A model generated the notes under the pieces. That model saw nothing but the letters and a program-made list of their open reading frames with translations, searched no databases and was not told the DNA's origin. This document shows positions 1,150 through 56,646 of a DNA stretch of 64,000 nucleotides, piece after piece. This DNA comes from a virus. The stretch covers positions 1 to 64,000 of the IMG/VR virus record IMGVR_UViG_3300027906_000009. One strand, written 5' to 3'. A program made the translations under genes and the position numbers. The stretch's first letter is position 1. Each line of letters opens with the position of its first letter.

Positions 1150-3279
1150 TTACAGCTTTCTCACTTTCTCGGTTGGCACACCCAGCCCCTTAAGCGCTTC
1201 AATGTTTGTGTTGGTTGCCGCGATGACTTCATTTAACTTTTCTTTGGTTGCCTTCGGAGTGCTCGGGTGATTCAACATTTTAGATAAAATACCAGTCATA
1301 CCTTTCAATGCGCCAACAATCGCGGTGGTCTGTGTGGTGCTGACTCGTCTGTTTTGGGCTGCGGATACTTGTTGGCTTTTGACCACTGCTGCTATCGCGA
1401 CATTGTTCTGGGGGCCCATTAAATAGCTAAAGCCAGGTACCCCTGTGGGGGCTTTAGACGGGGTTATGACTTCATCGGTGTCCGGTGTGGTGATGCCCTT
1501 AGAGGAGTTTTTAAGAGCATCGTTGATTTCTTTAAGGCGCTTCTTGCCCTCGGTGCCGGTGAATATACCGGAGTCTCCGGTTATCTCATTGTACTCTGCC
1601 TCGGAAATGCCTGCGCGTTTCATCGCGGCTTTGAGTTTGTCGTCTCCACTAAGGTCACTTAGGCCTTTATTACCTTTGGTTCTGAAATATCTTAGAAAGT
1701 CTCTTGATATACCTAATCGGCCGGCTGATTTGTCTCTCAAAATTTTAATAAAGGATGCTTCTGCGGGGCTAACGTCATCCATGGGTTCATTAAGATCAAA
1801 TGCCTTCGCCGAGGCGCGAATTGCGGCGACTTTTTTATTCAACGCTCGGGCGTCGATGGTGCCTTGACTAAAATCTTGTAAGGCGGTTTGAACTCGGCCG
1901 GCCAAGACGCCGCGGTTCTTATCGGGTAATGTCTGCAATATTCTTAACACATCAATAAGCATCGGGGCGGCATTGACAGCCGCAGAAAGATCTGCCGGTT
2001 TGCCGATGCCAGTTTTGGTCCCTACACTTTGGCCGAATTCAAGACCGATGCCGGCCTTGGTGAAGGATTTGGTCGCGTCGAGGTTATAACCTTGGTTTGT
2101 GAGCATACCACCGGGCGTGTACATTCTCCTATCATAAACCAAGCCTTGTTGTGTTTTAGGTATGATACCGATCCTCATCAGAGTTTCTACATTCGCTTCT
2201 AACTGTTTGGTAAAGCTTGTCATTCCTGCTGCAAGGTCCGTCAATGCCTTGTTCGCTTGACCTGGGGCGTCGAAAGACTCATTGACTTTTCTTCCCAATT
2301 TGGTTTTAAGAGATCCTCCGGCCGTAGATCCAGGTTGGTCGCCAAAAAGTAAAAACCTTCTTGCGTCCTCACGGCTGTATCCAGTCAAGCCCCTGATAGT
2401 ATCTAATGCAAAGACTCCCAATTTACTGCCCGATTTAATTTCACCATATATTGGGTGCCTCATAATTGCCTCTCGCACCTTCACCATGCGGTCACTCTCA
2501 CTCATCATTAATATTTCGTTTGGACTAAATACCACCTGCCCTAATATAGAATTCAGTTTTCCTGCGAAGGCGCTGGCTCCGGATAGTGTGTCTAATTTTT
2601 GGCCAAAGCCGGACATTAAAGTCCCTACGGAGACCCCGGTTGTTGCTGATAGTTGTTGAATTTTTTTAAATTCATTTTGTATCATGGGAGCATTGTATGC
2701 CATCGCTTTTGCAACTAATTGAAAATTTTGCGAAACCACACTAGGTAACATTTTTATTTCTTTGGCGAAATCAACAATTCCTTGGTTCAAATTTAATACT
2801 TCCTTTGCAGAAAGATTTAATGTATATGTTCCCAATTCTACATTTTTATTAAATTCACCATAACTTAAGCCCATCTCTCTCAACGTTCCAGCCAGAGCCG
2901 TCATTTTATCTGCATATAAGTCCATGCCCGTGCCGAGTTCAGTCTCAGCTAAGGTTCCGAACTGTTGAAAGGAGCCCATCAGTGCGTTAAAAGCTTCTGT
3001 TGCTGGTTTTGTTGATCCTAAGAATTTATTCATAAACATTGCCGCGTTTTGCAGGGAAGTCTCTAGGGGGCCCCCTTTTGCAAAAACGGCGCCGCGGGTT
3101 GCAACTCTCGACAATGTTTTTTCGATGTCTTTAACTAAGTTGTTAATATCATCGGTTTGTTCTAATATACCGCCTTCTCTAACTTTTATAAAAGACTCAG
3201 CCTCAATGCCGTCGATTCTGCTTTTTAACTTAGCGACTTGAGCTTTAAGTTTCGCGATTTGTTCATTTGCGGGATTCAT
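1150..3279 (-). CDS. Tail tape measure protein
   Basis: A 709-residue, mostly helical protein. It begins with a coiled coil (about residues 1-60), continues with long amphipathic, Ala/Gly/Leu-rich helices (residues about 80-280) and ends in a Thr/Asn-rich helical tail. It lies directly after the tail tube and gp26/gp51-like assembly chaperone genes and before baseplate genes, the standard tape-measure position. T4 gp29 has 590 residues, so a tail somewhat longer than T4's is predicted if one residue spans about 0.15 nm. AGAGG precedes the ATG by seven bases. No peptidase or lysozyme motif is visible. The identification is by size, helicity and position, since tape measures conserve little sequence. 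Confidence 0.7.
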   Translation of the reverse strand: MNPANEQIAKLKAQVAKLKSRIDGIEAESFIKVREGGILEQTDDINNLVKDIEKTLSRVATRGAVFAKGGPLETSLQNAAMFMNKFLGSTKPATEAFNALMGSFQQFGTLAETELGTGMDLYADKMTALAGTLREMGLSYGEFNKNVELGTYTLNLSAKEVLNLNQGIVDFAKEIKMLPSVVSQNFQLVAKAMAYNAPMIQNEFKKIQQLSATTGVSVGTLMSGFGQKLDTLSGASAFAGKLNSILGQVVFSPNEILMMSESDRMVKVREAIMRHPIYGEIKSGSKLGVFALDTIRGLTGYSREDARRFLLFGDQPGSTAGGSLKTKLGRKVNESFDAPGQANKALTDLAAGMTSFTKQLEANVETLMRIGIIPKTQQGLVYDRRMYTPGGMLTNQGYNLDATKSFTKAGIGLEFGQSVGTKTGIGKPADLSAAVNAAPMLIDVLRILQTLPDKNRGVLAGRVQTALQDFSQGTIDARALNKKVAAIRASAKAFDLNEPMDDVSPAEASFIKILRDKSAGRLGISRDFLRYFRTKGNKGLSDLSGDDKLKAAMKRAGISEAEYNEITGDSGIFTGTEGKKRLKEINDALKNSSKGITTPDTDEVITPSKAPTGVPGFSYLMGPQNNVAIAAVVKSQQVSAAQNRRVSTTQTTAIVGALKGMTGILSKMLNHPSTPKATKEKLNEVIAATNTNIEALKGLGVPTEKVRKL

Positions 3280-3319: not shown

Positions 3320-3526
3320 TTACTCTTCTTCTTGTGGGGAAATATGCTTAATGGTTCTTTGGACAAACCACCTTCTTAAACCTATGGGAAAATTATAGGC
3401 TTCTGTAAAAGAAAAGTTACCTTCTTTGACTAACAAAAATATCTCTTCGTATATATTTTGTTGTGCACTAGAGAAAGCCTCTGCGAAACAATGCCCAAGA
3501 CAAGGGCACCTCCTTTTCAGAGACAT
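3320..3526 (-). CDS. gp51-like C-terminal reading frame; stand-alone small protein or +1 frameshift extension of the gp26-like gene
   Basis: This frame overlaps the last 59 bases of the gp26-like gene in the +1 frame and runs 49 codons past its stop. The part beyond the overlap looks like real protein: QQNIYEEIFLLVKEGNFSF followed by EAYNFPIGLRRWFVQRTIK. As I recall it, short gp51-type hub-assembly proteins of T4-like phages look like this (aromatic, G-x-F-S, Y-N-x-P-I-x-L-R). Inside the overlap the translation is Cys/Arg-rich and unconvincing. A separate start is possible at the ATG at 3526 with AGGTG nine bases before it, giving 68 residues. The alternative is a ribosomal +1 shift at the end of the upstream gene, which would make one fused chain. 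T4 genes 26 and 51 are adjacent in the same order. Confidence 0.55.
   Translation of the reverse strand: MSLKRRCPCLGHCFAEAFSSAQQNIYEEIFLLVKEGNFSFTEAYNFPIGLRRWFVQRTIKHISPQEEE
3468..3482 (-). other. Candidate +1 programmed frameshift site
   Basis: The coding strand reads AGA GGC TTT CTC TAG in the gp26-like frame. An SD-like AGAGG lies four bases before the CTC codon, which is followed at once by the stop TAG. This is nearly the architecture of the bacterial prfB site (SD-like, about three bases, Leu codon, stop). The TTT codon followed by C also lets tRNA-Phe re-pair perfectly on TTC after a +1 slip. Either slip enters the downstream frame that encodes the gp51-like tail. Shown by sequence: the arrangement and the open +1 frame. 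Inferred: that slipping occurs. Confidence 0.4.
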
Positions 3527-4412
3527 TATTACACACCTGACAGGTTGTCTCTTGAAGCGTCGAGATTCTCGGACGGCAACTATTATAAAATTCTTTGAGG
3601 TAAGCCGCATCGGCTGCTGGTAACACTTCAATTAGTTCTGAAATAATTGAAGGGTCGGAAACTGTGTTTGCTGTTATAATTACTTGCTTCATGAATTCAA
3701 GTGTATAATTAAACTGCAAATTATATTTTTCTTTTTGTTCTCTACTTTTGTTGATAGTTTTAGCAACTTGTTCATCAAAGTTTACAATTTCCAGTTCTAT
3801 ATCAGTTACTGGTAGTTTAATGAAAAAAGTGTTTGATACTTCTGAGTATTTTGGCAACTGGTTTTCATCTTCTTCATCTTCCTTATAAAAGCTTGGCTCT
3901 ATAATTTCATGCTTTGTTAGATCAAACTCGTGCGGAGTTGTTTTTCCACAATTTTCACAGAATGTTTCTGTCTTAAAAAGTGCACCATAACCGCTTATTC
4001 TTGCCTGTAGTAAAACTGCCATCTTGTCTTCTTCTAACAAGCTCTCAGAATCAACACCAGGAGTTAACATAATATTATCTATCAACTTATCGAACAGGGT
4101 CTTACCATTAGGATTACTTGCAGAACTCAACAAATCTTCATCCCTTGCCGTCATATGTCTTACTGTTACTTCTTTTAGACCCCTCAGCGCGTGGCCGTGG
4201 GGATAAAACCTACCACCAGACGGGAGTTTTACTATTTCTTCTGGTTTTATAAAAGGCAACCCAAAAAGGTCTCTTATGTTTTTTCGGGATCCAGGTGGGG
4301 CCCCGGGGGGTGTGGGTGGAGCCTCAACTTGAGGGCTTTGTTCTTGTTTTTCTTCTGACTCTTTATAATCCGGGTTTGTATTACCGGTGAATTTTTTTGA
4401 ATTTCTACTCAT
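3468..4412 (-). CDS. Baseplate hub assembly / tail-assembly chaperone, gp26-like
   Basis: A 314-residue protein of the T4 baseplate family (gp26/gp51 type, Pfam T4_baseplate). After a Pro-rich N-terminus (residues 25-42) it has the family's beta motif LPSGGRFYPHG (about 63-73), then VTVRHMTARDEDLL (82-95), TLFDKLIDNIM (105-115), and EEDKMAVLLQARISGYG (127-143). Two CxxC pairs, Cys152/Cys155 and Cys291/Cys294, probably make a zinc ribbon. In T4 these proteins act during hub and tail assembly and are not abundant in the virion. The gene lies between tail tube and tape measure, which matches the position of tail-assembly chaperones across tailed phages. AGAGGA precedes the ATG. Its end overlaps the next frame, with a possible +1 frameshift at its stop. 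Confidence 0.75.
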   Translation of the reverse strand: MSRNSKKFTGNTNPDYKESEEKQEQSPQVEAPPTPPGAPPGSRKNIRDLFGLPFIKPEEIVKLPSGGRFYPHGHALRGLKEVTVRHMTARDEDLLSSASNPNGKTLFDKLIDNIMLTPGVDSESLLEEDKMAVLLQARISGYGALFKTETFCENCGKTTPHEFDLTKHEIIEPSFYKEDEEDENQLPKYSEVSNTFFIKLPVTDIELEIVNFDEQVAKTINKSREQKEKYNLQFNYTLEFMKQVIITANTVSDPSIISELIEVLPAADAAYLKEFYNSCRPRISTLQETTCQVCNNVSEKEVPLSWALFRRGFL

Positions 4413-4470: not shown

Positions 4471-5037
4471 TTATCCTTCGCGGTTGTTCCAATTCCACTG
4501 CGGCTTTTGTTCTGTGGCTAACTCATTCAAAGTCGCCCAGTCATATTTAACTCCGATTTGTATATTCAATGCTTCATCCGAGCTATAATCTAGACCGTCA
4601 AAAGATACTGAGGTTATTTGAGGGTTTTTTAATATCCACTCTTCTAACACCTCTGCATTACTATTTGCTGAAATTTGTTGAATTTTAAATTCTCCCAAAG
4701 TGGTGACCATATCATTCTTTGAGATAGTTTTCATACCCGTTGCTGACGCAAGTACGTTTGTTGGTAACTCATAACCAAATGCTTGCAACATATTGTATAA
4801 TGTCTGTGCTGCGTCGGGATCTACTGGGTCGACCAATGTTAAGCTAACATCCTGCCAGGTCACTCTTCCAGGGAAGTTAAACGTGTGCTGTAAAAACTGA
4901 TGTGAAGTTGAGCCGATGTTAAAAGACGGCTTTGTCACAGATTTGATTATAAATTGAGGCGCGCCTGCGAAGTACAAAAGCCATCTAAACTTTCTCTTTG
5001 GCTCCATCCCCGCATTATTCCAAAATTGATCTGACAT
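4471..5037 (-). CDS. Tail tube protein, gp19-like
   Basis: A 188-residue protein forming the rigid inner tube of the contractile tail. It opens with PKRKFRWLLYF, followed by KSVTKPSFNIG and the HQFLQHTFNFPGRVTWQDV segment, then LTLVDPVDPDAAQTLYNML. This is the typical tail-tube (T4_gp19) pattern: an N-terminal strand ending in R-W, a conserved K-P-S/x-F, a loop with an F-P-G-R-x-x-W turn, and V-D-P before an oligomerisation helix. T4 gp19 has 163 residues. GGAG lies ten bases before the ATG. It directly follows the sheath gene, as in T4. Confidence 0.9.
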   Translation of the reverse strand: MSDQFWNNAGMEPKRKFRWLLYFAGAPQFIIKSVTKPSFNIGSTSHQFLQHTFNFPGRVTWQDVSLTLVDPVDPDAAQTLYNMLQAFGYELPTNVLASATGMKTISKNDMVTTLGEFKIQQISANSNAEVLEEWILKNPQITSVSFDGLDYSSDEALNIQIGVKYDWATLNELATEQKPQWNWNNREG

Positions 5038-5077: not shown

Positions 5078-8000
5078 TTAATCGTCAAATTCAGCACCAG
5101 TGCTTGTGATTATGAAATCAACTGCGATGAACTCTATTGACCTTGCAGGCTTCAAGAATATCTTAGCGTACATAATATTTCTGTCTACTAAATCTGGGGT
5201 TGTTGTGCTCTCGTCTAATATAACTTTAAAGTCAGACAACCCAAATCTAACCTTTACATCTTCTAACAATGGAACTACTTGTCCAGTAAACCGAGACCAA
5301 GTCGATGGAACGTTTTGGTCGAAAAGAAGATTGCTACAAATTCTTGAAACTTCTTTTTTGATGAAAATTAGAAGCCTTCTAACATTAATCCTGTCAAGAG
5401 CGGACTGTGTAGATTGGAGAGTCTTCTGTCCAAAAACTACGATTCCCTCGGAAACAAAAGATGCGATCGGATTTATGTTTGCTTCATATAGGGTGTCCCT
5501 ATCTTTAGACATAAGCTGTTCCGAGGTCTGCAAGACCGGCAACCCTGCGTTTCCTTGATTGAGCCCACCTCGATTGAAGCCGGCTGGGGCGAACCATACA
5601 GCATCTCTCTGTTCTGTATATGCCATAACACCCAAAGCAATAACTGATGGTGGTACCCAAACGTCTCTTGACGATCTGGTATCTCTTATCTTCAACCAAG
5701 GATAATAAGTTGTCCCATAAGAAGAATTAATTTGTCTTTTCACTAAAGCTGCAGCGGATAACTCAGGTGTAGTGCCGTCGACTCTATCCTTAAAGTTCGT
5801 ACACTTTCTTTGAGAAGGTGGAACATATACATCTGGAAGGTCGATAATAGCTAATGAGTCTGCTCTTGCTTCGCATGTATTGACTAACTTTGTAGTCAAG
5901 GATGTGTTTGTTATTCCTGGCATCGCTGCTAAATTGTGTTCTACTACTTCTGCATCCCTTATTAATTCTATTGCCCTGTCGACCGAAGCATATGCATAAG
6001 AGGTTGCTGATGTTTTACCTTGTAGCACATCATTATTGAAAGGATTTGCTTCAGTAATGTTTGTTCCATCGAAGCCGCCCAAGAGAGGCATATGAAAGCC
6101 CTTGATTATGTTTAATAGTGGCCTTAAAGAGCCCCCGTCATTGTCAGCTAACACTGCAGAATATGAAGTGCCTCCGCCATCCACAAAACCTGTTCCTGTA
6201 ACTGTCGCTCCAGTAAAGTTAGTTGCATTGATAGAAGTTTGGCCTGCAATGCCGACAACGTCCTGGGTCAGAGTTAATACTGGACCTACAGCCAAAGCGG
6301 TGAGCGCTTGATCTGTTTGTGCGTTAATAACTGTGGCCAACCTATTAACAAAAGCATTCAAGTCGGCAAGTGCGGCGCGGCCGACTCTAAAGCGGCCGCT
6401 GCTATCTTTACTACCATCGGAATGGTTCTGGCCGGCGACAACTATATATGTTCCGGAGACCAAATTTGCATCCGTCAAGATCAATGTGTCATCTCCATCT
6501 GGAATCGCTGTAAAAGTTATTACTGCCGTAGCGTTTCGGCCAGTCTTGGAGCCGCGTTTCCAAACAATATCACCAACATCTGAATTTCTACTTATATTTA
6601 AAACTGTTGTTCCCGCGTCCTGGGCCTGTTGGCTTAAACTCACAACCACTTCATCCATTGAAAATGCCCAAGAATGTTCTGATAGGGAACCATCCGCGAC
6701 ACCATCGTCTTGGTCTGTAGCTAAGCCATTTAACTCTGACATTCTTCGAGTATGATCAACATACCCTTCATTTATTTGTTCTGTTGTTGTCCACTCACCT
6801 AGGCGAGCGCCACTCTTGCGTGAGAGCAAGTATGGCGTTGCTCCAAGATAAAATTGATCGTTCAAGGATCCACTACAAACGGATGGGAATTCAGGCCACT
6901 GGAAATTAATTGAACCAGAAGAAGATTGTGAAAGATGAATTTTGCCTTGCAAAAAGCCTCCGGCAGCGTTGACACCAGAAGCTGTAGATCCGTTGACAGA
7001 AGCTGATGCTTTCTTAGGTTGTACTGGACCGAAGAAACCAAACGGTATCAAAGATTTATTAGGTAATCCATTCGACTGGATATCTGCATCAAGTTGAACT
7101 CTTATATATTCTGAAATATTTGGATTCGATTCTCTTAATTTGTTTCTTTTTTCACCTGAATGCCATTCAAAATACTGGTCCCCTATTGCTTTTGCGATAA
7201 AGTTGTCGGATTTAGGATTAAGATTACACCTATCAAACCTTTCTACTTCTACTAACCTACCGGTGCCGTATTCTATTCTTTTAACAACAACACTAAACTC
7301 GCCGTATGGGTCGAGTGCACCTTCGCGGGCAACTTTTATATCTTCTATTCCAACTATTACGTTTCTTGAAGCTTCAGAGCCCTCTTGTAACGCCACTAAT
7401 CTAAATAATTTTGTATTGTTTGTTGCATCAAATACACCCGCGTTTCTTGATGTATCTTGGGCTATAACCCAACCAGTACGACCTTCGCCGAGTTGGTGTT
7501 TCGGCCCTCTGTGCCCCTCCATGCCAGAGGCTAGTTTCATTATGACGGCTGTTCTTTTAACACCAGAGGAGCCTGACATTCTAGCAGTTAACTTAGATGC
7601 AGTTTCCTCGAACGTTTCTCCTAGCCAATACTTACTTGCTAGTGAGGCTGCAGTTGGATTTGCAATGTTGTCGTTTGACATGACAGGATTCGTGTTAAAC
7701 TCTTCTCTCATTTCTTCTAGCGATGAAACAACATCTTTCGTTGTTGAACCATCAGTTAACTGAAACGTTACTCGGTTCTGAGAACTGAAATGCACAGGGG
7801 TTCCTGGGTTTGCAGTTATTATATTTGACCCTGATGTATTTTGACCTCTTAGTTTAACGCTGAATGATCCCGTTGTTCCATAAAAAATTGCTGCAAGGTC
7901 TGCGGTTTGGGCCGATGGTGGTGTTGCTGAACCTGAATGTGTAAAAACGAATAAACCGTATGCATTACTAGCGGCCCAGCCGGCTTCTGAATTTGGGACT

Positions 8001-8347
8001 GAGGCTGATGCTTCTTCTCCCGAGATACCTGCTAACCTCACCACTGTTATTGGTGAATCAATATTGGCTGACAAATAAGCCTTTGCTGCGTATGGTAAAT
8101 AGCTTTCTCCAAGTAAATCAGTACCATCTCGCCAAGGATCTCGTCCTTCATTTCCAGGCATCGGCAATCCGAATACTCTATTAAATTCATCCTGTGTTTG
8201 TACTTTATAAGGTTTTAGGGATGGACCCTGCCTTGTGCGCCCAATTAACACTGGACCAACACCCGGGCCCTGGCCTGGAAGTTGTGATAAATCTATTTCT
8301 TTTAAAAATACTCCAGGGGAAACAAATCTGAATTTTCTTGTAGCCAT
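5078..8347 (-). CDS. Tail sheath protein, gp18-like, enlarged by inserted domains
   Basis: Contractile tail sheath subunit. The N-terminus FRFVSPGVFLKEIDLS and the C-terminal domain (RINVRRLLIFIKKEVSR, LFDQNVPSTW, GLSDFKVILDE, then FLKPARSIEFIAVDFII) are classic sheath signatures. At 1089 residues it is over 400 longer than T4 gp18 (659). The extra length lies in the middle, including Ser/Thr/Gly-rich beta segments; one (about 6150-6500) has the LTQ...GQT core also seen in other virion proteins here. An ATG three codons earlier touches the AAGGAG itself, so the second ATG, nine bases after it, is the better start. It stands alone between an intrinsic terminator upstream and the tube gene downstream, with a CTATTTA element in its leader. 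Surface-displayed insertions are a reasonable inference. Confidence 0.92.
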   Translation of the reverse strand: MATRKFRFVSPGVFLKEIDLSQLPGQGPGVGPVLIGRTRQGPSLKPYKVQTQDEFNRVFGLPMPGNEGRDPWRDGTDLLGESYLPYAAKAYLSANIDSPITVVRLAGISGEEASASVPNSEAGWAASNAYGLFVFTHSGSATPPSAQTADLAAIFYGTTGSFSVKLRGQNTSGSNIITANPGTPVHFSSQNRVTFQLTDGSTTKDVVSSLEEMREEFNTNPVMSNDNIANPTAASLASKYWLGETFEETASKLTARMSGSSGVKRTAVIMKLASGMEGHRGPKHQLGEGRTGWVIAQDTSRNAGVFDATNNTKLFRLVALQEGSEASRNVIVGIEDIKVAREGALDPYGEFSVVVKRIEYGTGRLVEVERFDRCNLNPKSDNFIAKAIGDQYFEWHSGEKRNKLRESNPNISEYIRVQLDADIQSNGLPNKSLIPFGFFGPVQPKKASASVNGSTASGVNAAGGFLQGKIHLSQSSSGSINFQWPEFPSVCSGSLNDQFYLGATPYLLSRKSGARLGEWTTTEQINEGYVDHTRRMSELNGLATDQDDGVADGSLSEHSWAFSMDEVVVSLSQQAQDAGTTVLNISRNSDVGDIVWKRGSKTGRNATAVITFTAIPDGDDTLILTDANLVSGTYIVVAGQNHSDGSKDSSGRFRVGRAALADLNAFVNRLATVINAQTDQALTALAVGPVLTLTQDVVGIAGQTSINATNFTGATVTGTGFVDGGGTSYSAVLADNDGGSLRPLLNIIKGFHMPLLGGFDGTNITEANPFNNDVLQGKTSATSYAYASVDRAIELIRDAEVVEHNLAAMPGITNTSLTTKLVNTCEARADSLAIIDLPDVYVPPSQRKCTNFKDRVDGTTPELSAAALVKRQINSSYGTTYYPWLKIRDTRSSRDVWVPPSVIALGVMAYTEQRDAVWFAPAGFNRGGLNQGNAGLPVLQTSEQLMSKDRDTLYEANINPIASFVSEGIVVFGQKTLQSTQSALDRINVRRLLIFIKKEVSRICSNLLFDQNVPSTWSRFTGQVVPLLEDVKVRFGLSDFKVILDESTTTPDLVDRNIMYAKIFLKPARSIEFIAVDFIITSTGAEFDD

Positions 8348-8391
8348 GCTTAACATCTCCTTATGAGGATAAAATAATTGTTATTTTACTT

Positions 8392-46287: not shown

Positions 46288-49200
46288 TTAACTTTCTTTC
46301 TCTTTAATATATGTAACGCTTATTGCGTCGCTGGTGCCGATCGAATCCACAAAAGTCACAGTGTTTCCGGAAATGGTATAATCGTTTCCGGTACCTGAGG
46401 TTTGTAAAACTCCGTTAAGATAAATAGATTCTGTTCCACTTTTTATTCTAAAACCGGTTCCAGGGTTGACTGTGATTGCATTGCCAGATGGTGCTGCGGC
46501 GCCGGATGCCTTCATTTGATGTCTAAATATCATATTGTCGAGTGCTAAAAATTTAGTCGCATCAACTTCAGATTGACCAGTTTGGATATTATCAAGAGCT
46601 TTGGGCGATAATTTGATTTTATTCTGTATGTCGTCTAATAAACTTAACTCAAATTGTGGCGCTATAGGCTCAGGCGCCTCCTGAATATCTCTTGAGAAAT
46701 AATCAACTTTAGAGTCTATCTTTATCATCTCAATTATAGAGAAGAAATCATAAGGCCAATTGTATGAATATTTCGAAAATATCTCTCTATCTCTTCTGAT
46801 TGTTGACTGTACAGTTTTACCTCCAAGTTCTTGGGCCCCCGAAAGGTCAAGTATATCTTCCCTATTTTTTGAAATAGAATCTTTTATAACATTGACGTAA
46901 TCCGACTCTGCCCTATATTTAACTTTAAAGACTAACCATCTTACTTCTTTTTCTAGAAAAAGTTCGGGATTTTTATATATTGAACCTTTTCCTTTGAACA
47001 GATTATCAACATCTGGCAATACTATGCTAGAAATATATTCTACATCTGTATCTATTTCACTCTGGAGAACTCTAGAATGTTGTGCAACTGAAATACTCTT
47101 TCCACTTTCTGGGTAGAGATTCTGCCACAAGTGGGAAAGATCTTCTTGTCCTATTTCAGCTTTAAATTGAAAAATATATGATACAAAAGGATCTACATCA
47201 TCGTTTTTTATAAAGTCAAATTGTGGCGGAAACACATATTTGTCCATCATTCTTAACTGATAGGCTATATTTTCTTGTGCTAAAATTCCAGGATTTTCAT
47301 AAAATGATTCATACGATTCTTCTACTAATTCTGTTTCTTGGTCATTTGATGACAATCTTAAAGCATCAAGAAATTGCTGCTTTTTAAATGAGTTGTAATT
47401 TCTAGATTCTGCTAAAGATGACGGATCCATATCGAAAAACCTCAGTTCACATTCGTCTTCAAGGTAATACGGTATTGCCACTACGGCCTCACAAACTCTT
47501 TTCTTAGATGCTAGTCTTCCTAATTTATATTTTCTAGAAGGGTTTGCCTCCTGTGGGACTGAATATGCATAATTGTAAGTGTCTCTAACAAAACCAACTG
47601 CTGAAGCTAAGTCTCCCACACTAGTCTTTCCGTCGTCTCTGGCGCCTAAAATAGTTAGATAGTAACCTTTTCCTTCGTTTGTGGGCAGCTTTTCGCCATA
47701 TTGGTGCCACATTCCCCTTGATGCTGTTAAATAAGGAGTACTTGAACTGTTGAATTCTTGATAATAGTTTGTTTGGTTTCGGGTTTTCCATGGGGACCCT
47801 GAAACTTGATCTACCTGGTTGGTGGTTAAATTTAACGCGGAGACCTTATTATTTGAAAAATCCATAACTGGCGTTTCCCATCTTGGGTGTATTACCCATC
47901 TGTAATTAGCCGGGCCGTCTTGTTGGGAGGAGGTAGTTTTGCCCGGGGATCCTTGAAAATTATAATTATCTGCCGCTAGGCTTACATATCTTGTTAGATT
48001 TAGACTGGCTGAAACCACCATCGATTCTTTAAAATTAGTATTAGTTGAGGCATTATTTGGTGATTGCATATTTGTATATGTAACACTCATTCCGTTAATA
48101 ATTTCTGGTATTGTATACCTTCTTGTTTCCGAAGGAGTAAAAGAAATCTCCGCATATGGATCTGTGTTTGGGTCTAAATATGGTGGCACATATGGCAAAA
48201 ATCCATGTGAGCCCGACGTTGCGGCCTTTGTCTCCGTTAAAAAATCGACCTTTGATGGCAATACTGAGGCGCCGCCTGCAAAACCTGTTTTTCGGTTGGT
48301 CGAGTCCGTGGTGCCAAACTGACCACCAGTGCCTGATATTGTAGTATTTCCCGCATCTCCTGATTCAACTTGTGTTAAAGTTATTATATCTGTAGAGGTT
48401 GAGTAATTAGCTGTAATTAAGTTTTGGTGGCCATTTGCATGCCCTATGGCTGTTGCAAGTGAAGTACCTATTTGGTCAGGCGTATTACCAGAGGAATAGG
48501 ATCCTAATGCCACTAAAATGTTACCTGAACTATCTGTGTTTCCTGTTCCGAAAGTTGTACCTGATGTGCCATTTGAAAATCCTGCGATACTTAAACCTGC
48601 TGAAAAATTTGTTGCTATAGCATTGTTGCCTGCTGTGCCGGCTGTTGCCTGGGTTAGTGTCAACTTTCTGGATCCATCATTTGAAACATTAATTGTGTTG
48701 TTATGGCCATTTGTACTCTCTATTACAGTTTCAGCTTGGGCAATGACTGAATGCATTCCAGTTGACATACCAAAAACTTGTATTTTAACCCTGCCGCTGC
48801 TGTCTGTTTGTCCACTGGTACTAAAGGTGTCATGTACAAAAATATATGTTTTTTCAGTTGGAGAAGACTGTGCGTCCTTCAAAGTAAAGGTTGCGCCGTT
48901 TAGATCACTAGCTTTACTTACTGCGGTTGCTATTTCTATAGTAGCAGTGGCAGCGACTGCTGCGGTGTCTAAGACAAACTTATAAGTTTTTGTTTGACTG
49001 TTTGTTGACTGTAGAGTTACTGTATTATTGTTAAGCGCGTTTCGCCAGTCTGGGTCATTTCCAGAAAGAGATGATGGTACAGACATGTCGAGCGAGCCTG
49101 ATGCTGGAGTCCCAGGAACAGTTGTTGTTTCTGGTGTATATGTAGCTATTTCCGGGGTGCTTTCATCCACCGGTGGCCCGAAAGCAGAGTGCCTGTCATA

Positions 49201-52200
49201 CATCACTACATCATTATTAGTAATATAAACCCTCATTTTGTAGACAACTCCATTGTTTAATAGTGGACTAACTGGTTGTGATATAGCAGTCTGTAATTTT
49301 TCATCTTCTAAGAAAAATTTAACTGTTTCCGAAGCAAAATTACCAATTGCGCTCTTATACGGTAACATTGAGTTTACAAAACCTTGATATGTACTAGAAA
49401 AATTTATTGCGTTATTTGTGATAGTTTTTTGCCTATTCAAGGTGCCAAATGTAGGAGGATACTCATTAACCTTTAAATATTCCCTTGTGCCATAAAAAAT
49501 ACTGGCGCTTGGGTGTGGTTCATTATCAGGAACTATCTGGTTGTATAGCCTCTCGGGATATAAAAGATCATCAAAATTTACTCTCCTGGATGTTTCCCCT
49601 TTTAATCTTGGTATACCTGAATCAACAGTATTATTTATCAGAGAGCCCGTATAGCAAACACTTGATCCCAAACTCGCTCCATCAAAATTTCCAATAGGTA
49701 TATAAACTTTACTGTTGACCAAATAATTTTCAAAAGCTCCGTCAGTCGAGGAAAATAGAGGATAATCAACTGCAAGGCCAGATTTAATAGAATTAAATAA
49801 AACACCTGGTGCTAGGAGCGGCTTTGAAACTTTAGATTTTGTATTCTCTATCTTCAAATCTAACAGAGCCAGTGCAGTACCCTCTGTTATTTGTGTGTTA
49901 GATATATAACTGGCGTTATAAGAGCCTGATTTTAAATAATTTCTGTGGAAAATTTCTGATACTTGGACTGCACGTTCTGCAGGATACATTCCCCTATATG
50001 GCAAAAATCTTTTTGCTGCAGAGCATTTTAGTGTTAATTTGCCAGCGAATAAATCTACATTTTGATTATCTAAATTTTCCTGAAATGGTTGAAAATATTT
50101 CATAAAATCAGAAGTAGAATATGTTTTAAAAAATTGAGTCCCTATCGATATATCACCCGATGATGAGTGATAAATCGCTCCTGTCAAATGTAAAAAGTCG
50201 TCTGTAATGGTAGGATTATCCAAATCCGAAGAAGCATATATATCTTCTATATATTTACTTATTGTAAATTCTGGTATTATAGAATAGTTTTGACCTACAA
50301 GTCTAATTTCTTCTGCATATTTGTCGTAAGAATCGTAAAACGGTCCGATTTTGTTGCTTGAGGTTGCTTCCCACAATGATTCTCCTGCCAAGAATTCGTC
50401 GGATCCGAAAATTTGCGGGATTCTTCTGTTATAGATAGGTGCAAATGGGGGGGCGCCTCGCAAGAAATTATTTCCAAGTGGAAAAATACTATAATCATTT
50501 TGTAAAATTCCTTCGTTTCTTGTAGCCTGATCTCGATTGTTCGAGAATTGGGTCCCATCATTAAAGAAAGATGATGTAATGCTGATTGGTTTAGTAGAGA
50601 AATCACTTCTAGAATCCAAAACCCATTTACTTGTTTTAATCATGGACCTACTATTTTCAGAAGCAAACGGATTATAAGTCATCTTATGGCTCATGAGGTC
50701 GACCATTTCATAGGTTCCAAAATAATCTTTTTGAAACTCTTTGTGGTTAATTATTTGGGTTGGCTGTAAAAATAACTTTTGATCATAAGCTGATTGGCTT
50801 ACTAAATAATCTGAATAATTTAAATTTCCTGTTAAAGCTAGAGATCTGTTTGCAAGTTTAGAGTCCCATCCAAAAAACTTAAATTTTTCTCTAGTTCTTG
50901 CATTTTTTGTATATGTATTTATTTCTCTTGGATATATCGTTTCTAAATAATTTAGTTCTGTTTTGTTATATTGTCCCCTGATTAGGTCTAATCTACCTAT
51001 CGTGTTATTTAGTATTTTTAAATTTTCGTGATCTAAAAATGGCTCTTCTTCAAACCTTATCAGGTCTGACATCTCTTGATTTGCGAATCCTGTAATGTTA
51101 TTTTGTAATGGCAAACTAAGTGTGAAACTTGGCATTAATTGTATATTTTCTCGAGATGAAGCCCTGTACGCTTCTAGTACAATCTCATGAAAAAACTGGT
51201 CGAAATTCCACATCGACTCAAGTTGACGCTGGTTTAAGTTCCTAGCTTGATTGTCTCCTAGAAACCCAAACAACTGGCCGGATTCATAAGTATGTATACT
51301 TAAACTAAGCGGCTTGTATTTTGAAGTGGCCATAACTTCTTTAAAGTTAGTAATGCTCCTAGGCTTTGCAAAAGTTCGATTGTCTTCTTCTGTCCTGGAG
51401 TAATCAAATTGATACCCCTGCCTGTGTGATGTAAATGGCACCTTTGATGTGAACACCGCTGAAAATATATTGTTTTTCTTGTGAGCCCTGGATATGGCGT
51501 GCTGGGATCCTCTTATTTGTTTCCACGATGGCCAGCCGTATGGGCCTTGGCGGTTTAATATTATAGAATTTAATGTTGATGCATCCCCAAAGAAACCAGA
51601 TGCTGTTCGAATTGAATTTTCCGGGTTACCGCGGTGCATAGTATCAGGATTAATAAGGTTATTTACAAAATCTTGTTTGGTACCAGTAAAAATCTGATCC
51701 GTGCCGAGTGTGTTTGTATTTATAGACAAGGGTTCCAAAACAATTGTATTTAAATTCACAAAGTCAACAGGCGTGAACGTGCCGGCTGTGAATGAAGCAT
51801 CCTCTGCGCCGTAAATTTGTGTTGCACCTCCGAAGGTGCCGGCGCCGAGTTCACTAGATGCCAAAAAAGTTATACTTGACTCTGATTTTATACCGGCAGC
51901 ATGCTCATAGGTGTGTTGATGTCCTGAATTGCCATTAAGTCTTGTAAAGTTCAACGGCAGGAGCGCAGAAGCGGTGATCCACAGGTATCCAATATCAGTT
52001 TGAGGTATCTCATGTTGTACGAATAAATTATCTGGCTTGTAATAAATATCTCCCGTCATGCTCGGACTCAATGGGCCGGACATAAACCTTCTATAATTTC
52101 TATTAGTTTTATGTATTGACGCTTGAGTTGTAGAACCCGAACGGTACCCAAACCGTTCAGAATATTCTGAAGATAAATTATTAAGAACCCCTCTAACCAG

Positions 52201-55200
52201 AGTGTTTCTGTAATTTATTGTACTGTATACTGAAAATTCCTCTGCTTCTCTATCCAAACCATACTTTCCGGATGTTTCGGGGCCGCCCGGTGGGGAAAAT
52301 CTATTTACGAAAACATGTTCTCTTCTTGTTCTATCTGGTACGAAATGGTTTACTGTGCCTATTATATATTCTGATTTATTAAGAGATCCTGTTAAATTTT
52401 TACCTTCTTGTTCTACTAAATAATTATTATTATTTGTTCTGCCGGCTGTTTGCACTATTTCATAATCTTTGTGATAATTTCCTTGCTTAATTGGGTCTGT
52501 GGAAGCTTTTATGTTGGCCATGCTATAAAGTCTACTAGATTCTATAGGACTATGAAACATGGTACTATACCTATCTGAAGTTTCGATAGTAAGTGAACTG
52601 GTAGTTTCTGATATTTTATATGCTTCGATTCTTTCTAAAGTTTGCCCTATTTTGTTTTTTCTGTGAGGGGGCCTAACATCAAGAAAATCAGGCTTATTTA
52701 TTTTTAGCGAATCTCCCATAAAGTGGTTATTCGTTATTTTTAATTGTGTTTTAAACTTGCTAAAGTCTGTGCCGACTGAAGAACTGTATAAAGAAAAAGG
52801 TAATACAAAGTCTGCATCTGCATTATTATAATCCTGAATGCCAGAAACATTAGTTTTTGATGTATATCTTTCTTTTTGAATTGGTCTCGTGATGTCATCG
52901 CATTGTTTAAACTCATATATATCATCTGATGATATTGTTATATTTGTGTTATTTTGATATATTATCTTGTAGAGATCTTCAACTTTATTGGTGTCTTTAT
53001 TATGCCCTATATTTAAAATCTTCTGCTTTGTAATTGTGTGTTTGTAGGGCCTAACTAGGTTTCTTAAAGCGTACTTTCTAAAATTGTTTCCTGGGTATGA
53101 ATTTGAGATTTTAGTGGTCAATGTATCTTTAATCTCTTTTCTCCCTGTGCTGGTGGGTACCTCTTTTCTATCCTTTTGCCATAAACAATTTTTATTTTCC
53201 TGTTGGTCGTGATGGCCATGCTCCCAATCATATAGCAGTTCATTTATTGACAACATATTAGTTTCAAGTTTTGGTGGCTTAGTATCTATTATCGCGTATT
53301 TATGGTGATATTTATTTCTTTCAAGTGCATGACTTTCAACTACATTGTGCATGCCTGTGTTGTAAATTGTCGATGCGGCCAGTGTATGCTCCACAAGATT
53401 TCCAAACGAGGCGCCTATCCATTTATAATAATTAACAAATTTTTCAAAACTAATCTCATTCTGTACATTTTCAAAATATTTTTCTTTCAAATATTGCAAT
53501 AATTTATAATTTGCTCGATATCTGTTAACTGGTTCACCTATAGCGTTATTAAGCAATTCAACTCCAGAAAAGAAACTTATCATATCTTTAGAAATCACCT
53601 CATACATGCTTTTTTCAAAAGATAGAATATTTGTTTCTGGAGTTAAAGAAAAATCAAATTTATCTACTGGGTTTTCTTTTAACTGTACTTGGTCTAAACC
53701 CTTAATGCTTGCTAATGGAGTATTTTTAATTTGGTTTATGTAATCCACATACACTATATCTGTCAACTTATTGTCAAAACCATGAGATTTAAAATCATAA
53801 TTGGTCGACAGGTCAGAATCATATATTGGAGATGTAATATCTTGTCCGGATGTTTCATCCTCAATAGTGAAATTTGCCGTGTTATTATTAGAAACTTTAC
53901 TAAAATTTATTCTAAAAAGTTTTGTGTTTTCTGATTTTATAGTTTGATCTGTGTTAATTTGTTTTGGTCTTAATTTTTGTCTTCCCCTGTGAGTGAAAGT
54001 CTTACTTCTTAATTGCAATTCTTCGTCTGTTAATTGATCCTTCCAAGCACTAAAATTGAGTATTCTTATATCGGTCTTATCTATAACTGAACCTGTAATG
54101 TTAGTCTTATTTGCTCCAATAAAAATAGTTTTATTCGCAGAGTTAAACAGATTGTAATTTGCCCTAGACAATTCTGATGTCAATGAAAAACTATCCATCA
54201 ATTTATCATCAATATAGTTGTATCCTGAAAATATAATTTCATATTTTTCAGTTCCGTGATCAATGAGTGGGCTGCTTGTCTTCTTTCTTATTCTTAGTGA
54301 TACGTTCCACCTTGAATCATCGTAGACCTTTTTCAGAAATGGTGTCTTCAAATCTTGTGATAAAAATTTACTAGATTTTAAGACAAAACGCGCTTTGGGA
54401 TCTACAAGATTTTGCTTCTCAACAATCACAGTAAAATTGGCATTGTCCGGCGAAGGTGTTACAAAATTATTTTGTACCCCAGATACCTGTTTTATACCGA
54501 AAACACTAGATGTAGATATTTCGTGCTGAGCTTCGACTCTTTTTGCAAAAATAAATGAGCCTTCAAAAGTATACTCGTTTGGCACAGTTGAAGTCGGTAT
54601 AAAACTTGAGTCGCCGGCTGATGTGTAGAATTGGTGTAAATTTGCGGAGCTATTATCTCGAAAATTTATTATTTGAACTCTTTCTGCCTTTTTTTCAGTC
54701 TTATTGTCTTTAAACGGGATTTCACCGCCCACTAGAGAATAAACATCACTAATAACGTCAGTTGAGACGCCGGCTAATTTATATATTGCAGCATACCCAG
54801 CTTCAGTGCCTTTTTTATTGAATATCGCCCTTCGATAATTTTTAATATTTTGATGTATAGTCCTTGCACTGACTTGCGTTGGTTTAGTATATCTAAGGTG
54901 GCCGGAAATTTGCTCCATCTGGTCTAGTAAGGGCTCCTCTTCCTGCAAAATCATTGATGTCATATCTGTGTCAATACCTTCATCCTCTGCTTGTTCTAGC
55001 GGTAGCCTTCCAGTATTCTGGTTTGATAATCCTGTTTGTATATACTCATCAACACAACCTACAAAGTATTTGTCCCCGTAATCTAAATAATTTTCGTCAT
55101 AGGATCCTGTAGTGTTTGTTCCCGCTTGAATCACACCGTCCCAATTGGGGCCTCTAGAGCGAAGAGTAGCATCGAGTTTATTTCTTACTTCATCAAATTG

Positions 55201-56646
55201 CACTGCCATCATTTGCAGGAGTATTTGAAATTCTCGCTTACTTTCACTGTCTTGTTCAACAAAATCCTGGCGCGCCCATTCCGGTATAAATCTTTCTAAA
55301 TTATTATTGTTCAACCTATCGTAAGCTTCTCCAATCTTTCTGGTTTTTGATATTAGTTTTTGAACTGTCTGATCTGAATTTTCTAATATCGGAGTCTGGA
55401 CTTCTGTATTTTTTGTTGCTTGTGATTGATTGATCGCTGATTCTGGTATTAGAGTATTTTCATCATATTCTCTTATTCTTCCTGTTATTTCGTTTCCAGA
55501 ATAATCAAAAACCAAACTATCTTTTTTTGTCTTGCCAATTGGTGGCTTATTGAAATTGTAATATAGGCCCATTCTAGACGTATATTCCTTATTAGAAAAA
55601 TCATTTGCAAACACTTTTTTATCAAAGTAGCGGCCGATTTCTCTATTGTTCCTAAGTCCCTTCCAATATTTGAAGTCGTCCAAAGAACCCGAAAACGAAC
55701 CGGGTGATGAGGTTGCAGTATTATCTTTTCCTATTTTTCCACAAATATAGGATTTTACTTCTGGCATTTCTCCTATTCCAGACTGCGTTACAGTCTGGTT
55801 TATCTGGCCATCTACATAAAGTTTAAATTTTAAATTATTATTTATTTTAATAGCAGAGACAGCATAATGGTGCCACTTGCCATCACCGACACTAGCAGTA
55901 GTAATTGGCTGTACTGGGTCTGCAGGGTCTCCTATTTGAATGTCTGTAGAGCCGGTTGTTGCCGTTGTATATGTGACGCGGAATGGTGAGCCGGCGGAGG
56001 CCGACAAATGAAGCTTAAACTTAGCTTGATTTTCTGGTTGAGTACTTCCTGGTAATGTACCAATATCAAAGACAACTTCTTGTTGTTTTGAAGCATTAAA
56101 CCCATCCTTTTTCATCCAAAACTCTACAGTATTTCCCTTTGAAGGACTTAATAAAACCCCTGGTTCGTCATTGCTAAGTTGTCCCAAGAATTCAATTTGG
56201 GGTATTTTTCCCGCTCCTCCATTAAATTCTATGTACTGTTTGTAATTAAATCTAACGCTGCCGACTGCGCCTGGCCATTTTTGATTGAAAAGAGCAGTAT
56301 CTAGACTTGGTGAGGTCATATACCAATCATAGTGTTCCTCTTGGGTGCCATCAAAGGGATAGTAATTAATTATGTTGTATATTGCATCTACATAATATTG
56401 TTGCGCGCTGCCATAAAACGCAAAAGTAGAAGGATCAAAAGAATTGATTGGTGGTCGAAAAGCATCCATAAAAGATTGTTGCTTTGATATCAGCGAATCT
56501 GATTCTGCCTCATTTGATAATTTATTATTTTTCTGATTTAGGTGGGCCCTATTTGATCTTTTAAAATACTCTTCTTTTCTTTTATCCGCGGCAGTAGCTA
56601 TAGTAATTTCCTGGCTATTTCCGTCTTTGCTGCTAAAATCTGTCAT
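46288..56646 (-). CDS. Giant virion protein (3452 residues) with LamG-like domain
   Basis: The largest gene here, a single uninterrupted frame. Residues about 170-345 form a LamG/concanavalin-type domain: NTVEFWMKKDG, GDGKWHHYAVSAIK, FKLYVDGQ, SGSLDDFKYWKGLRNNREI, typical of carbohydrate-binding or adhesion modules. About residues 2535-2775 hold two tandem copies of the (L)TLTQ...GN module. The last 50 residues (SIYLNGVLQTSG...AISVTYIKE) match the C-terminal module of the 1221-residue fibre-like protein. Between lie long Asn/Ser/Tyr-rich regions without recognisable family. Its ATG overlaps the stop of the 864-residue gene. A host-contact or baseplate-periphery role is inferred from the LamG domain and size. 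Confidence 0.7.
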   Translation of the reverse strand: MTDFSSKDGNSQEITIATAADKRKEEYFKRSNRAHLNQKNNKLSNEAESDSLISKQQSFMDAFRPPINSFDPSTFAFYGSAQQYYVDAIYNIINYYPFDGTQEEHYDWYMTSPSLDTALFNQKWPGAVGSVRFNYKQYIEFNGGAGKIPQIEFLGQLSNDEPGVLLSPSKGNTVEFWMKKDGFNASKQQEVVFDIGTLPGSTQPENQAKFKLHLSASAGSPFRVTYTTATTGSTDIQIGDPADPVQPITTASVGDGKWHHYAVSAIKINNNLKFKLYVDGQINQTVTQSGIGEMPEVKSYICGKIGKDNTATSSPGSFSGSLDDFKYWKGLRNNREIGRYFDKKVFANDFSNKEYTSRMGLYYNFNKPPIGKTKKDSLVFDYSGNEITGRIREYDENTLIPESAINQSQATKNTEVQTPILENSDQTVQKLISKTRKIGEAYDRLNNNNLERFIPEWARQDFVEQDSESKREFQILLQMMAVQFDEVRNKLDATLRSRGPNWDGVIQAGTNTTGSYDENYLDYGDKYFVGCVDEYIQTGLSNQNTGRLPLEQAEDEGIDTDMTSMILQEEEPLLDQMEQISGHLRYTKPTQVSARTIHQNIKNYRRAIFNKKGTEAGYAAIYKLAGVSTDVISDVYSLVGGEIPFKDNKTEKKAERVQIINFRDNSSANLHQFYTSAGDSSFIPTSTVPNEYTFEGSFIFAKRVEAQHEISTSSVFGIKQVSGVQNNFVTPSPDNANFTVIVEKQNLVDPKARFVLKSSKFLSQDLKTPFLKKVYDDSRWNVSLRIRKKTSSPLIDHGTEKYEIIFSGYNYIDDKLMDSFSLTSELSRANYNLFNSANKTIFIGANKTNITGSVIDKTDIRILNFSAWKDQLTDEELQLRSKTFTHRGRQKLRPKQINTDQTIKSENTKLFRINFSKVSNNNTANFTIEDETSGQDITSPIYDSDLSTNYDFKSHGFDNKLTDIVYVDYINQIKNTPLASIKGLDQVQLKENPVDKFDFSLTPETNILSFEKSMYEVISKDMISFFSGVELLNNAIGEPVNRYRANYKLLQYLKEKYFENVQNEISFEKFVNYYKWIGASFGNLVEHTLAASTIYNTGMHNVVESHALERNKYHHKYAIIDTKPPKLETNMLSINELLYDWEHGHHDQQENKNCLWQKDRKEVPTSTGRKEIKDTLTTKISNSYPGNNFRKYALRNLVRPYKHTITKQKILNIGHNKDTNKVEDLYKIIYQNNTNITISSDDIYEFKQCDDITRPIQKERYTSKTNVSGIQDYNNADADFVLPFSLYSSSVGTDFSKFKTQLKITNNHFMGDSLKINKPDFLDVRPPHRKNKIGQTLERIEAYKISETTSSLTIETSDRYSTMFHSPIESSRLYSMANIKASTDPIKQGNYHKDYEIVQTAGRTNNNNYLVEQEGKNLTGSLNKSEYIIGTVNHFVPDRTRREHVFVNRFSPPGGPETSGKYGLDREAEEFSVYSTINYRNTLVRGVLNNLSSEYSERFGYRSGSTTQASIHKTNRNYRRFMSGPLSPSMTGDIYYKPDNLFVQHEIPQTDIGYLWITASALLPLNFTRLNGNSGHQHTYEHAAGIKSESSITFLASSELGAGTFGGATQIYGAEDASFTAGTFTPVDFVNLNTIVLEPLSINTNTLGTDQIFTGTKQDFVNNLINPDTMHRGNPENSIRTASGFFGDASTLNSIILNRQGPYGWPSWKQIRGSQHAISRAHKKNNIFSAVFTSKVPFTSHRQGYQFDYSRTEEDNRTFAKPRSITNFKEVMATSKYKPLSLSIHTYESGQLFGFLGDNQARNLNQRQLESMWNFDQFFHEIVLEAYRASSRENIQLMPSFTLSLPLQNNITGFANQEMSDLIRFEEEPFLDHENLKILNNTIGRLDLIRGQYNKTELNYLETIYPREINTYTKNARTREKFKFFGWDSKLANRSLALTGNLNYSDYLVSQSAYDQKLFLQPTQIINHKEFQKDYFGTYEMVDLMSHKMTYNPFASENSRSMIKTSKWVLDSRSDFSTKPISITSSFFNDGTQFSNNRDQATRNEGILQNDYSIFPLGNNFLRGAPPFAPIYNRRIPQIFGSDEFLAGESLWEATSSNKIGPFYDSYDKYAEEIRLVGQNYSIIPEFTISKYIEDIYASSDLDNPTITDDFLHLTGAIYHSSSGDISIGTQFFKTYSTSDFMKYFQPFQENLDNQNVDLFAGKLTLKCSAAKRFLPYRGMYPAERAVQVSEIFHRNYLKSGSYNASYISNTQITEGTALALLDLKIENTKSKVSKPLLAPGVLFNSIKSGLAVDYPLFSSTDGAFENYLVNSKVYIPIGNFDGASLGSSVCYTGSLINNTVDSGIPRLKGETSRRVNFDDLLYPERLYNQIVPDNEPHPSASIFYGTREYLKVNEYPPTFGTLNRQKTITNNAINFSSTYQGFVNSMLPYKSAIGNFASETVKFFLEDEKLQTAISQPVSPLLNNGVVYKMRVYITNNDVVMYDRHSAFGPPVDESTPEIATYTPETTTVPGTPASGSLDMSVPSSLSGNDPDWRNALNNNTVTLQSTNSQTKTYKFVLDTAAVAATATIEIATAVSKASDLNGATFTLKDAQSSPTEKTYIFVHDTFSTSGQTDSSGRVKIQVFGMSTGMHSVIAQAETVIESTNGHNNTINVSNDGSRKLTLTQATAGTAGNNAIATNFSAGLSIAGFSNGTSGTTFGTGNTDSSGNILVALGSYSSGNTPDQIGTSLATAIGHANGHQNLITANYSTSTDIITLTQVESGDAGNTTISGTGGQFGTTDSTNRKTGFAGGASVLPSKVDFLTETKAATSGSHGFLPYVPPYLDPNTDPYAEISFTPSETRRYTIPEIINGMSVTYTNMQSPNNASTNTNFKESMVVSASLNLTRYVSLAADNYNFQGSPGKTTSSQQDGPANYRWVIHPRWETPVMDFSNNKVSALNLTTNQVDQVSGSPWKTRNQTNYYQEFNSSSTPYLTASRGMWHQYGEKLPTNEGKGYYLTILGARDDGKTSVGDLASAVGFVRDTYNYAYSVPQEANPSRKYKLGRLASKKRVCEAVVAIPYYLEDECELRFFDMDPSSLAESRNYNSFKKQQFLDALRLSSNDQETELVEESYESFYENPGILAQENIAYQLRMMDKYVFPPQFDFIKNDDVDPFVSYIFQFKAEIGQEDLSHLWQNLYPESGKSISVAQHSRVLQSEIDTDVEYISSIVLPDVDNLFKGKGSIYKNPELFLEKEVRWLVFKVKYRAESDYVNVIKDSISKNREDILDLSGAQELGGKTVQSTIRRDREIFSKYSYNWPYDFFSIIEMIKIDSKVDYFSRDIQEAPEPIAPQFELSLLDDIQNKIKLSPKALDNIQTGQSEVDATKFLALDNMIFRHQMKASGAAAPSGNAITVNPGTGFRIKSGTESIYLNGVLQTSGTGNDYTISGNTVTFVDSIGTSDAISVTYIKEKES

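Follow-up and report, generated by a model that had tools for sequence, protein, structure and literature searches.

The locus described here lies on the minus strand of a 64,000-nucleotide stretch of viral DNA (positions 1 to 64,000 of IMG/VR record IMGVR_UViG_3300027906_000009), which is referred to below as the window. A zero-frame open reading frame (ORF) of 314 amino acids, at 3468..4412, encodes a gp26-like protein, the putative short tail assembly chaperone (TAC-N), which matches the PF12322 T4_baseplate HMM with 48.9 bits (cut-off 24.5, E 8e-13) and phrog_150 with E 4e-14. The ORF ends in TTG TTT CGC AGA GGC TTT CTC TAG. Overlapping this end in the +1 frame is a segment at 3320..3484 predicted to encode a gp51-like C-terminal domain (TAC-C) of 54 amino acids (AEAFSSAQQNIYEEIF...PQEEE, followed by TAA), and this frame contains no stop until the TAA at 3322-3320. 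Directly upstream of the gp26-like ORF is the tail tube gene (4471..5037, phrog_4542, E 4e-21), and directly downstream is a gene for a 709-residue protein (1150..3279), which, given a phrog_4211 match (E 3e-4) and its position, is probably the tape measure; all of these are on the minus strand. Elsewhere in the window, the tail sheath ORF (5078-8356, 1092 amino acids) has its PHROG sheath match mainly over the C-terminal part, which implies a large N-terminal addition, and a 3452-residue ORF in the structural gene region (46288-56646) has no PHROG match at E<=0.001.

As expected for a pair of tail chaperones, the locus lies between the tail tube and the tape measure, and a short frame is accompanied by an overlapping downstream frame at a conserved slip site. 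The original prediction for this DNA had pointed to the same location as that of the lambda-type G/GT chaperones, and this is borne out: lambda gpG and gpGT are likewise a short and an extended chaperone, encoded in overlapping frames between tail tube and tape measure. Lambda differs in shifting by -1, at GGGAAAG, in the direction opposite to the +1 proposed for the window, and no sequence homology was found between gpG/gpGT and the window's pair. Apart from T4, long-tailed phages are described as conserving frameshifting of the G/T type (Atkins 2016, PMC5009743). Both the direction of the shift and the role of the gene are shared with the tail chaperones of the archaeal myovirus HSTV-2, for which a +1 frameshift is considered likely (Atkins 2016, PMC5009743), and of the Bacillus phage Moonbeam, for which one has been reported or proposed (PMC4299906).

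Relatives of the locus were found by tblastn and degenerate-pattern searches and comprise six named phages (in which the annotation differs), 83 IMG/VR loci, 17 MAG contigs and, added later, Streptomyces phages. One locus (L001), identical or almost identical in sequence to the window, was left out of the counts. Grouping gave 94 clusters with less than 70% amino acid identity between them. Among about 100 relatives from named phages, IMG/VR and MAG contigs, nearly all carry the second domain in the +1 frame, in the form GLxxEYxExVYEqFFxLKYhGGWSFxEAYNLPxxLRxWFxxRL, and the gp26-like frame stops soon after a Phe-rich spot wherever it is readable to the end of the gene. The overlap, which had been described as noise, is indeed not conserved as an independent protein among these relatives. 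The arrangement is not seen in a small number of loci that are truncated or cannot be read, L059 and L108 among them, nor in L112 (LR756511.1, from a divergent phage of 595 kb), in which an ATG overlaps the zero-frame stop (TAATG) and the domain possibly restarts instead of being reached by frameshifting.

The suggested linking of the gp26-like part to the gp51-like part by a +1 frameshift thus gains support from an arrangement that recurs in 94 clusters, always at UUU followed by a pyrimidine. In all 94 clusters, the homologous slip codon is TTT with T or C as the next base, whereas TTT plus a pyrimidine makes up 18% of the Phe codons of these genes. The count of 94 is favored for about ten clusters by irregular sites having been placed by seeking TTT-Y near the homologous spot. 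About 80 clusters have TTT TGG at the slip, the commonest full form being TTT TTT TGG CCT (68 clusters). The rule that unifies these sites is that tRNA-Phe is predicted to re-pair perfectly on UUU/UUC after moving forward by one base. Three Firmicute members (L006, L008 and L010) carry an additional N-CCC-GA site that would also be usable in principle.

At the junction, the nearest relatives of the window, L012 and L013, read EVPFSVGWF^GLTKEYVEKG, and the alignment of L012 (EVPFSVGWF^GLTKEYVEKGTYESIY) with the window (EVPLSWALF^AEAFSSAQQNIYEEIF) is gapless on both sides of the slip. By this alignment the slip position in the window is likely TTG TTT^C GC (3483..3491, minus strand), with reading resumed at GCA (3484-3482); the same TTT CGC is found in the Streptomyces phage BRock. 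The window is among the most divergent members of the +1 class (37% to L012), so that the alignment locating its slip is short. Continuation of the +1 frame as genuine protein, which had been expected, is supported by an HMM of the second domains of +1-class relatives, built without the window, which matches the +1 domain of the window (E 9e-22, five-sequence search), and because the slip codon by homology is the earlier TTT (3488-3486), the +1 part has 54 codons instead of the 49 first given.

This earlier TTT also bears on the mechanism. The shift had originally been placed at TTT CTC (3471..3476, minus strand), adjoining the TAG at 3470-3468, as an RF2-like event stimulated by AGAGG. The bases are exactly as had been described: the gp26-like frame ends AGA GGC TTT CTC TAG on the minus strand, four bases separate AGAGG from CTC, and the C after TTT permits re-pairing from UUU to UUC. 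Escherichia coli prfB, which encodes RF2, would also resemble the window in a +1 slip of the P-site tRNA. However, TTT CTC is four codons downstream of the homologous slip site and not at a position homologous to the slip in relatives, so the window is probably not RF2-like, and the prfB model is not supported. The clade differs from prfB in having neither an A-site stop nor an SD at 3-4 nt: when the relatives are aligned, as the original prediction had proposed, UUU-Y is conserved, but AGAGG is not, no short-spaced SD is conserved, and the zero-frame stop usually falls 4-5 codons past the slip codon, and is therefore not in the A site. With AGAGG itself lying downstream of the likely true site, we regard an RF2-like shift at TTT CTC TAG as unlikely.

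The second frame could also be a gene of its own, started by translational coupling at ATG 3526 (3524..3526, minus strand, in the +1 frame and ahead of the overlap) or nearby. The window does have this ATG, and in L112 the domain may begin at TAATG, but start positions are not conserved among relatives: in 27 of 86 the +1 stretch upstream of the slip contains no ATG, GTG or TTG, in 15 of 86 none occurs even when a further 10 codons past the slip are included, and the nearest relative, L012, has none in its +1 stretch. Separate genes would, in addition, leave the UUU-Y site and the 5' structure described below unexplained, and T4 gp51 carries both parts in one protein; we therefore consider independent initiation very unlikely. 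Slippage of the transcript on a run of seven T, or -2 slippage of the ribosome, would suit the 76 of 94 clusters that have such a run, but the run is only three to four long in 15 of 94 (including the window, BRock and L012/L013), which excludes transcriptional slippage as a general cause, and -2 re-pairing is impossible there, making either form of slippage highly improbable. A sequencing error or a decayed gene, as might be supposed from L059, which cannot be read through, has next to no chance of accounting for the same shift in 94 clusters with conserved protein on either side.

Homology, the two frames, the conserved slip codon, the conserved 5' structure and the gene order, all of them comparative evidence, support a +1 programmed frameshift that would produce a T4-type tail chaperone pair, a reading to which we assign a probability of about 0.9. 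We infer the slippage itself, its efficiency and the chaperone activity of the products as follows. Most ribosomes would stay in the zero frame and yield the gp26-like short form of 314 residues. A minority would pause with peptidyl-tRNA-Phe on UUU (3488-3486), the tRNA would move one base forward from UUU to UUC, and the +1 frame would then be read for 54 codons, appending a small helical domain to give a product of 363 residues. If the pair works as lambda G/GT does, coating of the tape measure would fall to the short form, and delivery of tail tube subunits to it would fall to the long form.

The short form and the +1 domain of the window were also modeled separately with AF2, the former with a mean pLDDT of 87 and the latter as a three-helix model with a pLDDT of 89. 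Foldseek matched T4-type 'baseplate hub assembly' proteins in BFVD and found nothing significant in the PDB. The HK97 chaperone 2ob9 had the highest probability among the PDB matches listed, at 0.33 (E 1.3), which makes for a weak link to the HK97 chaperone fold.

Directly 5' of the slip codon, the window contains a candidate stimulatory stem-loop, GGTGCCC-TTGTCTT-GGGCATT (3490..3510, minus strand), which is register-shifted and has a predicted energy of -10.1 kcal/mol. Across the 94 clusters of the +1 class, the 33 nt through the slip codon are more structured than synonymous shuffles (mean z -1.90, half of the clusters below -2), and control stretches further upstream give z of -0.24 and -0.05. 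A fixed 8-pair helix shows 24 double changes versus 11.3 in column shuffles, with 0 of 500 shuffles as high, although these shuffles ignore relatedness. Some slid versions of the helix reach similar double-change counts with far fewer paired cells, so that support for the exact base pairs of the conserved helix is moderate. The 3' arm reaches the E site, and the stem-loop cannot be fully formed with the ribosome on the slip codon; its probable role would be to favor forward movement.

An SD-like element, AAGGAGGT (3508..3515, minus strand), lies 19-20 nt upstream of the slip codon in the window and shares its 3' part with the stem-loop. In most clusters of the +1 class a GGAGG under strong synonymous constraint ends 20 nt upstream of the slip, which is too distant for stimulation of the prfB type, and it may be no more than the stem-loop's 5' arm. 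Codon choice between positions -8 and +2 shows more bias than the protein requires: codon -8 (Glu) is GAG rather than GAA by 60:1, against a background of 36:64, codon -6 is CCG in 49 of 86, codon -2 is GAC rather than GAT by 45:3, and codon +2 is CCT in 73 of 75. A 3' structure was rejected as a stimulator of the +1 class, the 75 nt downstream giving no signal (z -0.57 versus -0.42 for the control stretch).

A sister clade encodes an equivalent of the second domain in the -1 frame. It includes the cyanophages S-RSM4, P-SSM7, Syn10 and DSL-LC02, as well as pf16, Stenotrophomonas Bhz51, Agrobacterium OLIVR5 and Atu_ph04, Aeromonas Ah1 and Vibrio R11Z, and Schizotequatrovirus belongs to it, with -1 slippage at U-UUU-UUC. 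All 80 of the -1-type IMG/VR loci have the heptamer T TTT TTC in register and exactly three bases before the stop, and this canonical signal lends independent support to frameshifting in the family. In 48 of the 80, the heptamer is preceded at a distance of 10 nt by GAGG or GGAGG. Structure is evident in the downstream stretch (z -1.55, codon-order shuffles) and absent from the upstream one (z +0.37, synonymous-codon shuffles), the two values coming from different types of shuffle. With structure 5' of the slip in the +1 class and 3' of it in the -1 class, stimulators and direction appear to change together.

The domain profiles of the two classes align along their length (90% probability, E 1.7e-6), and the domain of the window alone matches the -1 profile with E 0.011. 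The -1-class HMM in turn matches residues 200-244 of T4 gp51 (E 4e-7) and phiAS4 gp51 (E 8e-13), both in five-sequence searches, and the +1 profile searched directly against gp51 gave no significant match. From these comparisons, the second domain of the window is, through its family, probably homologous to the C-terminal part of T4 gp51. T4 gp26 and gp51 are both members of PF12322, and gp51 carries the C-terminal domain fused to it; T4 gp26/gp51 therefore looks like a two-gene form of the same pair. In a tree whose root is a drawing choice and in which AS4 gp26 has a long branch, the +1 and -1 halves are separated with 100/100 support, and T4 gp26 and gp51 group together inside the -1 half (95/93). 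The DUF6760 HMM (PF20546) does not match the window and matches relatives below the cut-off; in a 4.9 Mb genome the +1 domain is its only match at E<=0.01 (E 2.6e-4).

The abstract of the 2022 study of T4-like tail chaperones reportedly names 26 and 51, and in that work some groups are said to frameshift and T4 to use two genes. As represented in two papers that cite it (PMC12846349, PMC10274946), the study (Vladimirov, Gautam and Davidson 2022, Virology 566:9-15) identified these chaperones and described poly-T -1 signals in the TAC-N genes and, in some T4-like phages, a two-gene form consisting of a short and a fused protein. To the extent that it is reflected there, the -1 class and the two genes of T4 were thus already known, and the original, tentative statement that no frameshift had been reported for T4-type 26/51 does not hold. 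The T4-like chaperones so described resemble the window in having a short PF12322 form and a long form with a gp51-like C-terminal domain; they differ in that their branch shifts by -1 at U UUU UUC with a 3' structure, whereas the clade of the window would shift by +1 at UUU-Y with a 5' structure. Cyanophage gp51 was found to have only about 20% of the length of T4 gp51, with C-terminal similarity (Sullivan 2010, PMC3037559). No report of the +1 class was found in the literature searched, which misses most subscription journals, and novelty appears to lie in the +1 clade, in its signal and in the mirroring of the stimulators.

We tentatively propose, at somewhat less than even odds, that a single chaperone gene switched its direction of frameshifting during evolution and that the stimulator moved along with it. 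In one deep clade, +1 slippage at UUU-Y would be driven by a 5' stem-loop; in the other, a 3' structure together with an SD 10 nt upstream would drive -1 slippage at U UUU UUC; and in T4, gene duplication would have replaced recoding. If true, +1 stimulators of phages would gain a new type in the conserved 5' stem-loop. The +1 frameshift itself would mean that recoding of the T4-type chaperone occurs in another deep clade of phages with contractile tails, where the direction of slippage is reversed. Homologous loci making the same two proteins by +1 slippage, by -1 slippage or from two genes would amount to a natural experiment on frameshift direction. The finding would also correct annotations in public records that show the second domain in split or truncated form or lack it, for example those of Flavobacterium immuto, SP-15, Listeria LIS04 and cyanophage 'gp51'.

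Some further loci show other arrangements. Two encode the gp51-like domain in the -1 frame with no canonical heptamer: L120 (Vibrio D508), with CTT TTC AAG TAA, and L121 (Salmonella barely, Ackermannviridae), with ATT TTC ATT TAA. In four loci from bacterial genomes (L207, L211, L212 and L213, at about 1130-1650), a 123-codon ORF (LPLGYRDGDGNLHKNGVMRLATAGDEI...) precedes a DUF6760 domain encoded in the -1 frame, and the lambda heptamer GGGAAAG stands in register, 19 nt ahead of the stop. These four are close relatives and thus count as one observation, possibly of frameshifting in a chaperone gene of a tail-like or injection cluster.
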